60,256 nucleotides of DNA. It comes from an uncultured Gammaproteobacteria bacterium. Its GTDB lineage: Bacteria; Pseudomonadota; Gammaproteobacteria; Ga0077536. The notes under the pieces were generated by a model that saw only the letters and a program-made list of their open reading frames with translations, made no database searches and was not told the DNA's origin. The position numbers and the translations under genes are program-made. Of the stretch, positions 3,019 through 60,256 are shown in pieces; the first letter of the stretch is position 1; the number at the start of each line of letters is the position of its first letter. Location of the stretch: assembly GCA_938075585.1 (NCBI GenBank), contig CALJHG010000006.1:1-60256 (forward strand), given 5' to 3'.

Positions 3019-3801
3019 ATGGTTCACAACGAATCAAAACTCGGAAACGTACTAATTGTATCAGCACACGATCCTAGCGGCGCTGGCCTGCAAGCAGATA
3101 TAGAAACATGTCAGGCGCTCAACTGTTACCCCGCTACTATTGTGACTGGATTAACGACCCAAAATACAAGAAAATTATCTAGTATTAAAAATGTCAGTGC
3201 CCATGACTTCAAGGCACAACTGGAAATGTTGCTCGAAGAATTCGAGCCCGGAGTTTGCAAAGTTGGGCTAATAAATTCAACCGACTTGATGGCCACTTTG
3301 GGTAACGTAATTAGAGAAAAACTGCCAGGTATCCCTTTAGTGATAGACCCTATACTTGGCAGTGGGTCTGGGGCGAAACTGTTTACCGAAGAAATAGTTG
3401 AAGGGTATCTCCAGCATCTAACCCCTCTAACCGAAATCATGACGCCTAATCTGGCCGAATTGCGTCTTTTAAGTAACAGTAAAGATGTCGTGTCTGGCGT
3501 CGATTATTTACTAGGTAAGGGATGTAAAAATGTATTAGTGACTGACACAAATCCAGAGAAAGAAATTATCACTAACCACTTATTCTCAAAAGTTTACGAA
3601 CAGGAGACTTATGAAATGGAGCGCTACCGAGGAGAGTATCATGGTACCGGATGTACGCTAAGCTCCGCGGTTGCCTGCCGCTTAGCAACCGGAATGGACA
3701 TCGGAAGCGCTGTACGATCTGCACAAAAATACGCTCATTCAGCAGTACAATTTGCTCATAACTTTGGATGGTGTCAAAAAATCCCCAATCGATTCTTCTA
3801 A
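3019..3801 (+). CDS. thiD: Hydroxymethylpyrimidine/phosphomethylpyrimidine kinase
   Basis: The product has the ribokinase-like ThiD layout: SAHDPSGAGLQADI near the N-terminus, VIDPILGSGSG in the middle, TPNLAE, and the C-terminal anion-hole motif GEYHGTGCTLSSAVAC containing the catalytic region. ThiD phosphorylates HMP and HMP-P for thiamine synthesis. I chose the ATG at 3019, which has GAGAG about nine bases upstream; an ATG at 2995 would overlap hemJ and has no Shine-Dalgarno sequence. The next gene is thiE, whose enzyme uses the ThiD product directly, so the pair forms a short thiamine operon running into hemL. Confidence 0.93.
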   Translation: MVHNESKLGNVLIVSAHDPSGAGLQADIETCQALNCYPATIVTGLTTQNTRKLSSIKNVSAHDFKAQLEMLLEEFEPGVCKVGLINSTDLMATLGNVIREKLPGIPLVIDPILGSGSGAKLFTEEIVEGYLQHLTPLTEIMTPNLAELRLLSNSKDVVSGVDYLLGKGCKNVLVTDTNPEKEIITNHLFSKVYEQETYEMERYRGEYHGTGCTLSSAVACRLATGMDIGSAVRSAQKYAHSAVQFAHNFGWCQKIPNRFF

Positions 3802-3814
3802 AAAGTACCTACCT

Positions 3815-4447
3815 ATGAAATTCAGAAAAAATGGGGTTTATTGGCTGACACCTAGCGGTATTCAAGATACTAAAAAGCTCGTTTCACTTGCAAGGCAAGT
3901 AATGAGCGGTGGAGCATCTATGGTTCAGTACCGTCAAAAGAATTTAAACACTTCACAAAAACGTCATCAAGCGTTGCAATTAAAAAAAGTCTGTGTCGCT
4001 TATAGAGTCCCGTTTATTATCAATGATTCTGTTGATCTTGCGTTAGCTGTGGATGCCGATGGTGTTCATATAGGTAAATCAGACTCCTCCTTGAAGATGG
4101 CCCGCGACAATCTTGGAGACCACAAAATAATCGGTGTATCCTGCTATAATGACATTGATAGAGCGCAGGATATGTTAGATAACGGTGCCGACTATGTTGC
4201 GTTTGGTCGCTTTTATCCATCTTTAACGAAACCGGAAGCACCTATGTGTTCGCCCGAAGTCTTAAAAGTTGCGGGGGAACAATTCTCATCATCAATTGTC
4301 GCGATAGGAGGCATAAACTTGGATAATGCCTCCTATCTTATTAATAATGGGGCAACGCATATAGCGATCGTCGATGCGATATCACAAGCTAAATGCCCTT
4401 ATTTGGCTACAAAACGTTTATCAGGATTATTTAAAAAAAATTTATGA
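3815..4447 (+). CDS. thiE: Thiamine-phosphate synthase
   Basis: A TIM-barrel ThiE of 210 residues from the chosen start. Motifs seen are YWLTP at strand 1, QYRQKN (pyrophosphate/Mg site), PFIINDSVDLALAVDADGVHIG, GVSCYN, a YVAFGRFYPSLTKP loop and AIGGINLDNA. It joins HMP-PP with thiazole phosphate to give thiamine phosphate. The open frame begins at 3752 inside thiD, but homology begins at the Met encoded at 3815, fourteen bases after the thiD stop, so I take that start. The TGA stop overlaps the hemL ATG (ATGA), implying translational coupling. Confidence 0.92.
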   Translation: MKFRKNGVYWLTPSGIQDTKKLVSLARQVMSGGASMVQYRQKNLNTSQKRHQALQLKKVCVAYRVPFIINDSVDLALAVDADGVHIGKSDSSLKMARDNLGDHKIIGVSCYNDIDRAQDMLDNGADYVAFGRFYPSLTKPEAPMCSPEVLKVAGEQFSSSIVAIGGINLDNASYLINNGATHIAIVDAISQAKCPYLATKRLSGLFKKNL

Positions 4448-56806: not shown

Positions 56807-56826
56807 GTTAAAAGATAATTTCATTA

Positions 56827-56903
<77 letters not shown>

Positions 56904-56992
56904 TCTTTCTTCCAATCAATAACTTAGAAGCTCTACCAACGGGTTTCGTCCACTGCGTTAGGCCGAAATGAGCCACATGCCCTCACTTCTGA

Positions 56993-57010
56993 CCTACATA
57001 TGGCCTACAT
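56993..57010. repeat. CCTACAT direct repeats before the integrase gene
   Basis: CCTACAT occurs at 56993-56999 and 57004-57010, eleven bases apart, in the 152-base gap between the tRNA and the integrase start. Same-face repeats in this position could be arm-type binding sites for the integrase or its excisionase, or an autoregulatory operator. This rests on position only. Confidence 0.3.
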
Positions 57011-57055
57011 TTTTTCACCACGTATCGCGTTACTTAATCTTATGAGGAACGCGAG

Positions 57056-58255
57056 ATGCACAAACTGATTACCAAGAAAGTTATAGAAACTATTCACCTT
57101 TCAGAGGGTAGAGAATTACTGCTGAGAGATACCGAACTAAAAGGATTCGGTATACGGATTAGTCCTTCAGGAAACAAGACCTTCTTTGCAGAAGGGAACT
57201 TCAATAGAAGTCGTCAAACTAAAAGACGTTCTTTGGGACGCTACCCTATTGTCCCTCTGGACACGGCGAGAGGAAAAGCTAGAGAACTCCTGTACCAGTG
57301 GTACATCGGTATGGATATAGAGAAACAGCATATGAAGACTGCTCAAGAGGCAGTAAATACCTTCACTCTGGAAGAGACTATTAATCGTTATTTTTCCTCT
57401 CGCTCGTTAAAGAGCGAAGCAGATTACAGACAGGTAACAAGGAGAGTATTCGGAGATTGGTTCGATAGACCTGTCAGGTCTCTAACCAGAGAAGATATCG
57501 AGAAACGATACTGTGACAGAGTATTTAAAAAGGGCTGTAAAGCACAGACGAATAAGGCGATGAGATATCTCAATGCCATTCTTAATTTCGCCTCAGCGGA
57601 GACGATAAACGGTACTCATCTCTTGCTTTCAAACCCTGTTCAAGTCCTCTCAGATAAGCGTTATGACCGCTCTGTGAAGCCTAAAAAAACCTTTATAGAA
57701 GCTTCTCAATTATCTGGTTGGGTAAACGCTGTTAACTCTTTGTGCACTCCTCTGGCAAGGGATTTATTGCTCCTTCAGATACAGACAGGATTAAGAGACA
57801 GTGAGGCTAAAGGACTCCTTTGGGAAGATGTAGACTTCGAAAATAGACTGTTCACCGTCAGGAATACGAAGAACGGTAGTGACCTTACTATCCCTATGTC
57901 AGAGCAGCTATATGGTCTATTGTCAGAGAGAAAGAATACTGCTACTTCGGATATCTATGTTTTTCCGAATAAGACCCAGATAGGTCCTGTGACTTCTATT
58001 CGGAAACAGAAAGATAAGGTAATAGGAGCGACAGGAATACAGTTTACTCATCACTGTTTAAGGAGAACCTTTGCATCTTTGCTTAACAAGGAATTAAGTA
58101 TCGACATACCCACGATATCTGTTCTTCTTAATCACACTCCTCAAGGAGTAACCCAGAAACATTATTTGACTTCATCACCGAAAGATTTTAGAACGGTCTA
58201 TCAACAGTTCAGTAGTATTGTTCTTAAAAACGAGGAAGTAGTCAGTGGTACTTGA
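57056..58255 (+). CDS. Tyrosine recombinase / integrase of a tRNA-integrated element
   Basis: A 399-residue integrase. Residues 20-80 match the arm-DNA-binding domain common to tRNA-targeting P4-like integrases (LRDTELKGFGIRISPSGNKTFF, RSLGRYPIVPLDTARGKARELL); 100-190 form the core-binding domain; the catalytic domain has Arg247 (TGLRDSE), Lys272, His333 and Arg336 (HHCLRRTF), His360 and the nucleophile Tyr370 (QKHY). Arginine is coded mostly by AGA/AGG, unlike many neighbours, suggesting foreign origin. Its position directly after a tRNA implies integration at that tRNA. The next gene starts 20 bases later. Confidence 0.93.
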   Translation: MHKLITKKVIETIHLSEGRELLLRDTELKGFGIRISPSGNKTFFAEGNFNRSRQTKRRSLGRYPIVPLDTARGKARELLYQWYIGMDIEKQHMKTAQEAVNTFTLEETINRYFSSRSLKSEADYRQVTRRVFGDWFDRPVRSLTREDIEKRYCDRVFKKGCKAQTNKAMRYLNAILNFASAETINGTHLLLSNPVQVLSDKRYDRSVKPKKTFIEASQLSGWVNAVNSLCTPLARDLLLLQIQTGLRDSEAKGLLWEDVDFENRLFTVRNTKNGSDLTIPMSEQLYGLLSERKNTATSDIYVFPNKTQIGPVTSIRKQKDKVIGATGIQFTHHCLRRTFASLLNKELSIDIPTISVLLNHTPQGVTQKHYLTSSPKDFRTVYQQFSSIVLKNEEVVSGT

Positions 58256-58275
58256 TAGGCTCATAGCAAGCGAAG

Positions 58276-59670
58276 ATGTCAAACGACTCACATAGACTAC
58301 AAGACACGTCGGTTCACTTTAGCTACCCCGAGCAATTTGATGATTTCTGCGCAGACCTATGGTCTGAATTTCTAAGCGAAGCGTTTCCTCCCGCAAAAGG
58401 AGTAGGCAGACGACCTCGGGTTTCTCGCGAGGAGCAAATGCGAGTTATTTGGATGAATCTATATTGGCAATGGCATGTTGACCCTGGGCGGATTACCAGC
58501 GTCCCCATGGATGTTCGAATATATGCCAAAGATAAACACTACCAACAACTAGGATTAACCAGAATTCTACCTGACATGATTAGACATCTTATTGATACGG
58601 GCGTGCTCACACTTGTTAAGAAAGGCTCTGAAATCTCAGGCAAAATGACTCGAGTTAAGCCATCCAAAAAGCTCAGGAATCGGTTTAAGCGTTTTGCCCC
58701 TGAAATTAAGCCTGTGCAATTAAAAGATGAGAATAAAAAGCCGATTAACTACGAAGAAACAGCGGATACCTTACGATGGGGAGGCATACTAAGGCGCTAT
58801 AACGCGCTATTAGAACGAACACACATTGATGTCGGGCACTTTACGAATACAGACCATAAAAAGTACGGCTTAAACTTATCACGACGCAAACACGTCTACA
58901 GACAATTCAATAATAGTAGCTTTTCACAATATGGGCGTATTCACGGCGCTTGGTGGCAACTCCTTCCTAGCCAGTGGAGAAAAGATATTCTTATTGATGA
59001 CTTTGAAACTGTCGAGGTAGATTTCACCGCGATGTCGACATATATCACTTACGGAATAGAAGGCGTAAAGCCCCCAATGAAAGACCCTTACAAGCTGAAA
59101 ACGCCGAACGAGTTTATAGATGGTCCCACTCAGAGAAAGTTTCTAAAAAAACTTATTAGCATCGCTTATAACACTGCGAGCGATGCCGATGCACTGTGGA
59201 CGTTTTGCGAAGAGTACAAGAAAGTGGTCACGCCTGAGTTTCTGGCATTTTTTAGAAACCACGGGGAAAGCCTCCTGGAAGCCTTCAGAGATGCACACCC
59301 AGCGATAAGTAAGTACTTATGTACTAATAAAAAACATGGCTTAACGACCATGTTTGAGGATTCACAGCTTGCTATGGCACTAATTGACCACTTTACTGAC
59401 CGCGAAGTACCAATACTGACAGTACACGACTCTTTTGTAGTCCCTGAATACGAAGCTGGGAACTTAATCACCAAAATGACGTCCCTTTTCTTCGAAAGAT
59501 TTGGATTCAAACCAGACCTTAAACAAGAAAACATCAGTATGGTTCAAGCCCAAAGACTCCTAAGAGACGACCCGTTAATCAACGCTAGTCCTCTAGACTA
59601 CTTTCGCACATCTGAACGAAGTGAAGATTACTACTCAAGAAGAGAAGAATTTATAAGTAATATAGCTTAG
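58276..59670 (+). CDS. Mobile-element protein with putative family-A polymerase-like palm
   Basis: A 464-residue protein I cannot name. Residues 50-140 look like a winged-helix initiator domain (RILPDMIRHLIDTGVLTLV, then GKMTRVKPSKKLRN). Residues 210-420 carry three ordered motifs reminiscent of family-A DNA polymerases and T7-type RNA polymerases: TVEVDFTAMS (Asp249, motif A), TQRKFLKKLISIAYNT (Arg287, Lys291, Tyr298, motif B) and LTVHDSFVVP (His384, Asp385, motif C; T7 RNA polymerase has HDSFG). GRIHGAWWQLLP precedes motif A. A third region, residues 345-375, fits the helix before motif C. It follows the integrase by 20 bases and is followed by a structured non-coding tail. Replication initiator, polymerase or both are possible. 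Confidence 0.6.
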   Translation: MSNDSHRLQDTSVHFSYPEQFDDFCADLWSEFLSEAFPPAKGVGRRPRVSREEQMRVIWMNLYWQWHVDPGRITSVPMDVRIYAKDKHYQQLGLTRILPDMIRHLIDTGVLTLVKKGSEISGKMTRVKPSKKLRNRFKRFAPEIKPVQLKDENKKPINYEETADTLRWGGILRRYNALLERTHIDVGHFTNTDHKKYGLNLSRRKHVYRQFNNSSFSQYGRIHGAWWQLLPSQWRKDILIDDFETVEVDFTAMSTYITYGIEGVKPPMKDPYKLKTPNEFIDGPTQRKFLKKLISIAYNTASDADALWTFCEEYKKVVTPEFLAFFRNHGESLLEAFRDAHPAISKYLCTNKKHGLTTMFEDSQLAMALIDHFTDREVPILTVHDSFVVPEYEAGNLITKMTSLFFERFGFKPDLKQENISMVQAQRLLRDDPLINASPLDYFRTSERSEDYYSRREEFISNIA

Positions 59671-59945: not shown

Positions 59946-60057
59946 CCACCCAATATAATCTCTTAATCTTTCAACTTCCCTTCCCTCCAATATACCCATT
60001 CATTTATTAATCTAGAGTCCACAGTCGCGACCCTTTATCATAAATATATCAGAGGAA

Positions 60058-60075
60058 AGTACCGCCTCAGGTACT
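60058..60075. repeat. Stem-loop D
   Basis: AGTACC (60058-60063) and GGTACT (60070-60075) form a perfect 6-bp stem with loop GCCTCA. Confidence 0.6.
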
Positions 60076-60256
60076 ACGTCTCTCTCAATTAGGGGTATCA
60101 GCAGCACCCTTCAGAGCGATTCTAAGCCCCTCTGTGAGGTTTTGACTATTCTTGAATAAACATCTGTAAATATTGTATTTAAATCTATTAGAGAGCCTTA
60201 CAGAGCGTTTAAAATGCATACAGTAACAAAGTCTAAGATGGTAGAATAAATACTAA

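Follow-up and report, generated by a model that had tools for sequence, protein, structure and literature searches.

The TV-Pols were described in silico in 2008 by Iyer, Abhiman and Aravind and are recognised by a hairpin arginine, two palm aspartates and a fingers aspartate plus an RxxxK motif, with no nuclease (PMC2579912). A subset possesses an additional N-terminal domain, in some cases supplied by a neighbouring gene of its own, and this subset adjoins genes for gamma-delta resolvases, lambda-type integrases or transposases, the alternative context of the family being a link to the D5 helicase; primase as well as polymerase activity was predicted for these proteins (PMC2579912). One proposal sees in TV-Pols the minimal core of DNA polymerase I (Pol I) and T7 RNA polymerase (RNAP). 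Phage members of the family were re-described in 2024 as divPolA2 from barbaviruses and other phages, with no homologous thumb seen, and the available portion of that paper mentions TV-Pol once, without linking divPolA2 to it (PMC11348598).

The nearest tested precedent is the CcPol-MP pair of SCCmec, in which CcPol is a distant TV-Pol. Together with its partner MP, CcPol synthesises DNA de novo; priming requires this small partner protein, and the domain annotation of CcPol is PolA, close to Pol I (PMC7581432). Here we compare with these systems a polymerase-like gene found in the window, meaning the whole stretch of 60,256 nucleotides analysed, which is all of contig C6 in a draft genome of 1.95 Mb (Table 1).

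Element context of the polymerase gene

The 464-aa ORF starts 20 bp past the integrase stop, and the contig ends 586 bp beyond the ORF. Upstream of the integrase lie rpoD and tRNA-Met, the 3' part of which is the 62-bp sequence duplicated on contig C55, and a 25-bp arm-like repeat is found near both ends of the element (C6 and C55). In G005, a genome of the same genus, the site is empty and rpoD and tRNA-Met are followed by the genes that come after attR on C55 (79% over 4.4 kb), indicating that C55 1-1414 is the right end of the element. The initial annotation had placed the gene on a tRNA-integrated element, and the tRNA-Met, the duplication and the empty site in G005 bear this out; the presence of rpoD and dnaG together with the empty site points to a chromosomal island rather than a plasmid or phage. 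The middle of the element, between C6 and C55, is absent from the assembly. At the right end, C55 (L207) 280-1158 contains a 292-aa outer-membrane-like ORF, which we take to be TorF-porin-like and which is possible cargo.

Related islands at tRNA-Met, with this integrase and a TV-Pol, were also found in G004 and in two loci from single-cell genomes (L119 and L120), while in G002 a 96% identical integrase follows tRNA-Phe (L202 11698-13123). Integrase DNA is 94-96% identical among the window (56910-58290), G004 (L201) and G002 (L202), and such near-identical integrases at tRNA-Phe and tRNA-Met suggest target switching. Close to the TV-Pol start codon, within some 50 bp of it, DNA identity to G004 and G002 has fallen to around 40%, indicating either a reshuffling of integrase and polymerase or very different rates of evolution in the two. 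At L119 (13417-14189 and 3230-3304) the 3' end of tRNA-Met occurs twice, the copies being separated by about 700 bp that include a small ORF, and element-end sequences follow further along; islands appear to have accumulated one behind the other at this tRNA.

Table 1. Features of the window, with positions counted from its first nucleotide.
Feature	Position	Strand	Basis
tRNA-Met (CAT), integration target	56827..56903	+	ARAGORN; Rfam tRNA 74.5 bits
attL core, 62 bp exactly duplicated at C55 1415-1476 (attR)	56846..56907	+	blastn, pattern search
Arm-type-like repeat TGACCTACATATGGCCTACA, near-copy (92%) at C55 1332-1356, the other element end	56988..57012	+	sequence match; putative arm-site role
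Tyrosine integrase with Arm-DNA-bind_3 domain	57056..58255	+	Pfam PF00589 E 1.5e-19, PF13356 E 5.6e-9
Predicted TV-Pol-type family-A polymerase, 464 aa	58276..59670	+	phrog_4756 E 1.5e-31, model, Foldseek
Winged-helix-like N-terminal domain, residues 51-129	58426..58662	+	DSSP, separate domain model, Foldseek, weak SlyA profile match
Hairpin residues 220-227 (GRIHGAWW), conserved Arg221; family consensus GGRFYGGWWQ	58933..58956	+	alignment; aligns with PolA TGRLSS
Motif A, residues 246-254, putative catalytic Asp249, Ser254 at D+5 (His 84/90)	59011..59037	+	alignment
Residues 270-272 (DPY), conserved fingers Asp, invariant Tyr	59083..59091	+	alignment
Motif B, R287-x3-K291, invariant Asn299	59134..59172	+	alignment
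Motif C, V383-H-D-S-F387, putative catalytic Asp385	59422..59436	+	alignment; hhalign to T7-like RNAP motif C
Noncoding structured segment, to contig end	59671..60256	+	folding z -5.2; inverted repeats; no Rfam match
Recurring part of segment: G005 C46 87%, own C56 78%, G001 C37 77%; kept in deletion derivative	60037..60256	+	sequence matches

Conserved residues and predicted fold

Pfam and NCBIfam gave no match for the ORF, while in PHROGs it matched phrog_4756, a family listed without function. Sequence profiles searched against the PDB found no polymerase, so a comparison of folds was needed. The AlphaFold2 model built from a 90-row alignment (pLDDT 89.3, pTM 0.84) yielded 51 Foldseek matches in the PDB at E<=0.001 (best E 1.7e-5), and all 50 among the PDB matches listed were family-A polymerases, including Taq, Bst, Klenow, phage G20c and apicoplast polymerases and the mitochondrial RNA polymerase POLRMT. 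Superpositions on Pol I had TM-scores of ~0.3 with large full-length rmsd, as is to be expected of a protein that is much smaller and has a different N-terminus, and shorter alignments had an rmsd of 6-8 angstrom over about 265-280 columns. The model has a strand (219-223) at the hairpin and places D249 where a strand ends and D385 within a hairpin turn; a single long helix (163-180) lies ahead of the hairpin, the TV-Pol thumb being two antiparallel helices.

Conservation was counted over 90 aligned sequences of 18-32% identity to the query. D249, K291, H384 and D385 are invariant, as are G220, R235, E247, Y272 and N299, and near-invariant positions include R221 (89/90), R287 (89/90) and D270 (87/90). 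Such conservation exceeds chance, and the motifs had been positioned correctly from the start (D249 in VEVDFTAMS, R287-x3-K291 and V383-H-D-S-F387, with spacings of 38 and 94 residues), but the RxxxK...Y block proposed earlier stands only in its arginine and lysine, since residue 298, a tyrosine here, is I, L or F in 84/90 sequences. Y639 of T7 RNAP corresponds in register to the invariant N299. The motif-A glutamate of Pol I (Glu710), which had been reported as missing, is indeed absent, the corresponding residue five positions after the motif-A aspartate being His in most sequences and Ser in the window protein. Judging from the structures known for Pol I and T7 RNAP, the His/Ser at this position and Asn299 would bear on nucleotide choice without settling it.

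Comparison of profiles with hhalign gave a mixed outcome for the HMM-HMM search that the initial annotation had proposed: motif C matched T7-like RNAPs (E 3e-5, prob 72.5), whereas the PolA profile brought the hairpin and motifs A and B into register non-significantly (E 0.12). A control comparison of Pol I with T7 RNAP likewise failed with these shallow alignments, and weak profile scores are thus no evidence against a polymerase. In the structure prediction proposed at the same time, the confident model matches family-A palms; a fold lacking the palm or a variable aspartate pair, named beforehand as grounds for giving up the assignment, was not what emerged. The absence of Pfam and NCBIfam matches and the weak scores of profiles compared with Pol I alone are what could be expected of a protein with coincidental motifs and no polymerase function, an idea that is largely refuted and retains hardly any probability in view of the invariant catalytic set, the confident model and the family-A fold matches. 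Model and conservation together support a compact, element-borne enzyme with a family-A-type palm and a DNA-binding-like N-terminal domain, and we regard its assignment as a family-A palm protein of the TV-Pol type as very probable.

The likeness of motif C (HDS) to T7-like RNAPs rather than to the HDE of Pol I, the missing motif-A glutamate and the presence of POLRMT among the fold matches could also indicate a T7/N4-like single-subunit RNAP that transcribes element or cargo genes, an option that the 2024 authors raised for divPolA2 (PMC11348598). This is improbable in our estimation, as the O-helix Tyr639 of T7 RNAP is replaced by an invariant Asn, the T7-type N-terminal promoter-binding parts are absent and the bacterial members adjoin integrases or resolvases in the manner of replication modules.

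Two established families were considered for the protein and rejected. Classical PolA does not accommodate it, with no PF00476 match and with Ser at D+5, Asn299 and HDS in place of Glu, Tyr and HDE, and neither does the T7-type RNAP family, with Asn299 at the Tyr639 position and no PF00940 match. Palm fold and motif order are common to Pol I, T7 RNAP and the window protein, and motif C is HDS as in T7 RNAP, but the window protein is much shorter and lacks the motif-A Glu, the O-helix Tyr and the exonuclease.

The N-terminal domain was modelled separately (residues 17-160, 59 sequences, pLDDT 89.7). DSSP assigned helix-strand-helix-helix-strand-strand to residues 51-129 of the full model, and most of the Foldseek matches to the domain alone were winged helices of the MarR/PadR type or S10e-like folds (best E 0.014, prob 0.97), none of the matches reaching E<=0.001; a SlyA profile matched the N-terminal part weakly in sequence (E 0.47). 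The order of secondary structure and the Foldseek results lend moderate support to the winged-helix-like part described in the initial annotation, and according to the models the domain is likely to be a winged helix.

Relatives and family placement

Although no characterised family of this shape had been recognised at first, the protein fits TV-Pol as a further member of that known family, with divPolA2 as its phage relatives. It would be a minimal family-A polymerase, made up of the hairpin arginine, the palm and short fingers and fused to the N-terminal domain. The TV-Pol hallmarks are present at the near-invariant or invariant hairpin R221, palm D249 and D385 and fingers D270, R287 and K291, and the genomic context agrees in its integrase form, with an N-terminal globular domain and an adjacent integrase. 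Also shared are a length within 400-600 aa, the lack of an exonuclease, and the features of the described subset, namely an extra N-terminal domain (sometimes a separate upstream gene) and integrase or resolvase neighbours. Differences are that the N-terminal domain was predicted to be all-helical in 2008 (PMC2579912) but is winged-helix-like in our model, and that the known D5 helicase link was not seen here.

Proteins of Paracoccus denitrificans and Rhodobacteraceae HTCC2150 gave matches, the connection of the former to the 2008 alignment being by species name alone, and the Ma-LMM01 candidate MAP_030 gave a marginal match (E 0.038). By fold, Foldseek matched the Zamilon virophage replication protein (prob 1.00, E 2.7e-3) and, over its full length, the Barba31A divPolA2 protein (E 8.6e-21). 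Sequence and full-length fold are thus common to divPolA2/phrog_4756 and the window protein, as are a palm with no Pol I-type thumb and a globular N-terminal domain; divPolA2 is phage-encoded, whereas the window protein is on an integrase-bearing island. CcPol-MP (PMC7581432) and the PolA-SSB pairs (PMC10061031) likewise place a family-A polymerase on an integrating element, and CcPol-MP is biochemically a primase-polymerase, but CcPol lacks the N-terminal domain of the window protein and has an OB-fold partner and the helicase Cch2.

Of 399 genomes sampled from the phylum, 25 contained relatives, and further relatives came from 347 contig stretches of a GTDB search (the best 80 of which were analysed further) and from 39 loci on viral contigs. 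No search pattern of use could be derived from a broad alignment (A1); a narrower one (A2) worked. A scan of viral contigs with the single protein found no relative. Many phages of about 90-145 kb carry relatives, and a plasmid relative used as query matched about 115 Rheinheimera phages. The window protein groups in the tree with L119 (SH-aLRT 97) on a long branch inside a mainly genome-borne group, and phage-encoded relatives fall mostly in separate clades. Five well conserved positions deviate in the window protein (222, 223, 254, 309 and 358, including H254S and L358T), which together with the long branch suggests that it may be specialised or decaying.

Among the best 80 of the 347 genome loci, a tyrosine recombinase was present in the examined flanks of 53 and a serine resolvase near the TV-Pol in five. 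The N-terminal domain forms its own ORF directly upstream in five loci, including those of P. denitrificans (L192) and HTCC2150 (L197), and frameshifting may account for some of them. At L192, L173, L139, L123 and L172 the TV-Pol gene is divided between an N-terminal and a polymerase ORF, representing a natural two-gene form or frameshifts, and the TV-Pol copies of L027 and L042 are truncated at the C-terminus. One family relative, L073 (G010:C9), contains a second divergent PolA-like ORF of 624 aa (PF00476, 79 bits).

Clustering and Pfam searches of the neighbours of relatives found no conserved helicase or SSB partner, and no conserved D5 helicase was present among the neighbours analysed. 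The want of a helicase partner would suit a repair or gap-filling polymerase, or one copying the lagging strand after single-strand transfer of the element, with no part in initiating replication; divPolA2 phages also encode a regular replicative polymerase and have variable neighbourhoods around the divPolA2 gene (PMC11348598). We consider such a role unlikely, as the winged-helix-like domain suggests site recognition and the distant TV-Pol relative CcPol has primase activity (PMC7581432), neither point being decisive.

Varied cargo lies beside TV-Pol genes (L119-L198), with genes for caspase-domain, adenylate cyclase plus TPR, Sel1 and RTX proteins and DNA methylase. Some relatives have genes for AbiE toxin-antitoxin, methylase or caspase-domain proteins nearby, and lytic phages carry homologues, sometimes several per genome (PMC11348598). 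This could be interpreted as pointing to cargo with a defensive or toxic function, a polymerase that answers phage by synthesising DNA or RNA. PADLOC gave no family match for the polymerase ORF and neighbours of TV-Pol genes are not conserved among loci, which makes this interpretation very unlikely.

Downstream segment and a deletion derivative

The noncoding segment from the end of the ORF to the contig end folds better than shuffled sequences and has no family in Rfam. Its predicted stems showed little covariation, in 3 of 33 pairs among four sequences, so no RNA is claimed. The adjacent structured RNA of the initial annotation therefore stands as a structured sequence but not in its RNA role, and the suggestion of an effector acting with that RNA finds no support. 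A noncoding part of ~220 nt recurs in the genus (60037-60256; L246 6578-6824; L247 998-1170), and the G001 copy lies about 110 nt past the 3' end of a tRNA-Gln.

In G005 C46 (L245) 3420-3956, at a tRNA-Phe, sequences matching 56823-57136 are joined directly to those matching 60037-60256. The internal deletion has removed the integrase almost completely, together with the entire TV-Pol and the 366 nt beyond it, and MORN-repeat-like ORFs come after the retained segment. Retention of both the left end and the downstream segment suggests, from sequence, that the two act in cis, chance retention being possible as well.

Proposed role and significance

A self-contained initiator-polymerase, as first proposed, is a plausible reading. 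In its strictest form a single protein would be initiator, primase and polymerase, its winged helix recognising a hairpin-rich cis site from 60037 onward, which the non-autonomous deletion derivative retains, and an unusual family-A palm starting synthesis with no helper, a possibility that we consider less likely than not. Of the same low probability is the part given to the palm in this reading, with unusual sugar-selecting positions comprising the His/Ser gate of motif A and the invariant Asn in place of the O-helix Tyr.

We favour, as somewhat more probable than not, the role of a primase-polymerase that copies the excised element. After excision, the winged-helix-like domain would place the enzyme on element DNA, perhaps at the structured segment just 3' of the gene, and the palm would start and extend a DNA strand with no separate primase, so that the excised element could be copied before reintegration or transfer. 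A host helicase would be required, since none is conserved beside this TV-Pol subset. Against a role in element replication are the need of CcPol for a priming partner, the lack of a conserved partner among the neighbours analysed and the missing middle of the element.

In summary, the integrase-linked bacterial TV-Pols are now tied to the phage divPolA2 family, and the N-terminal domain of the TV-Pol subset is given a likely fold. The polymerase-bearing element and its deletion derivative form a natural pair that provides a candidate cis-acting site. CcPol, a distant relative, is the only assayed TV-Pol that we found in the literature, and with this locus the old prim-pol prediction for TV-Pols becomes directly testable.
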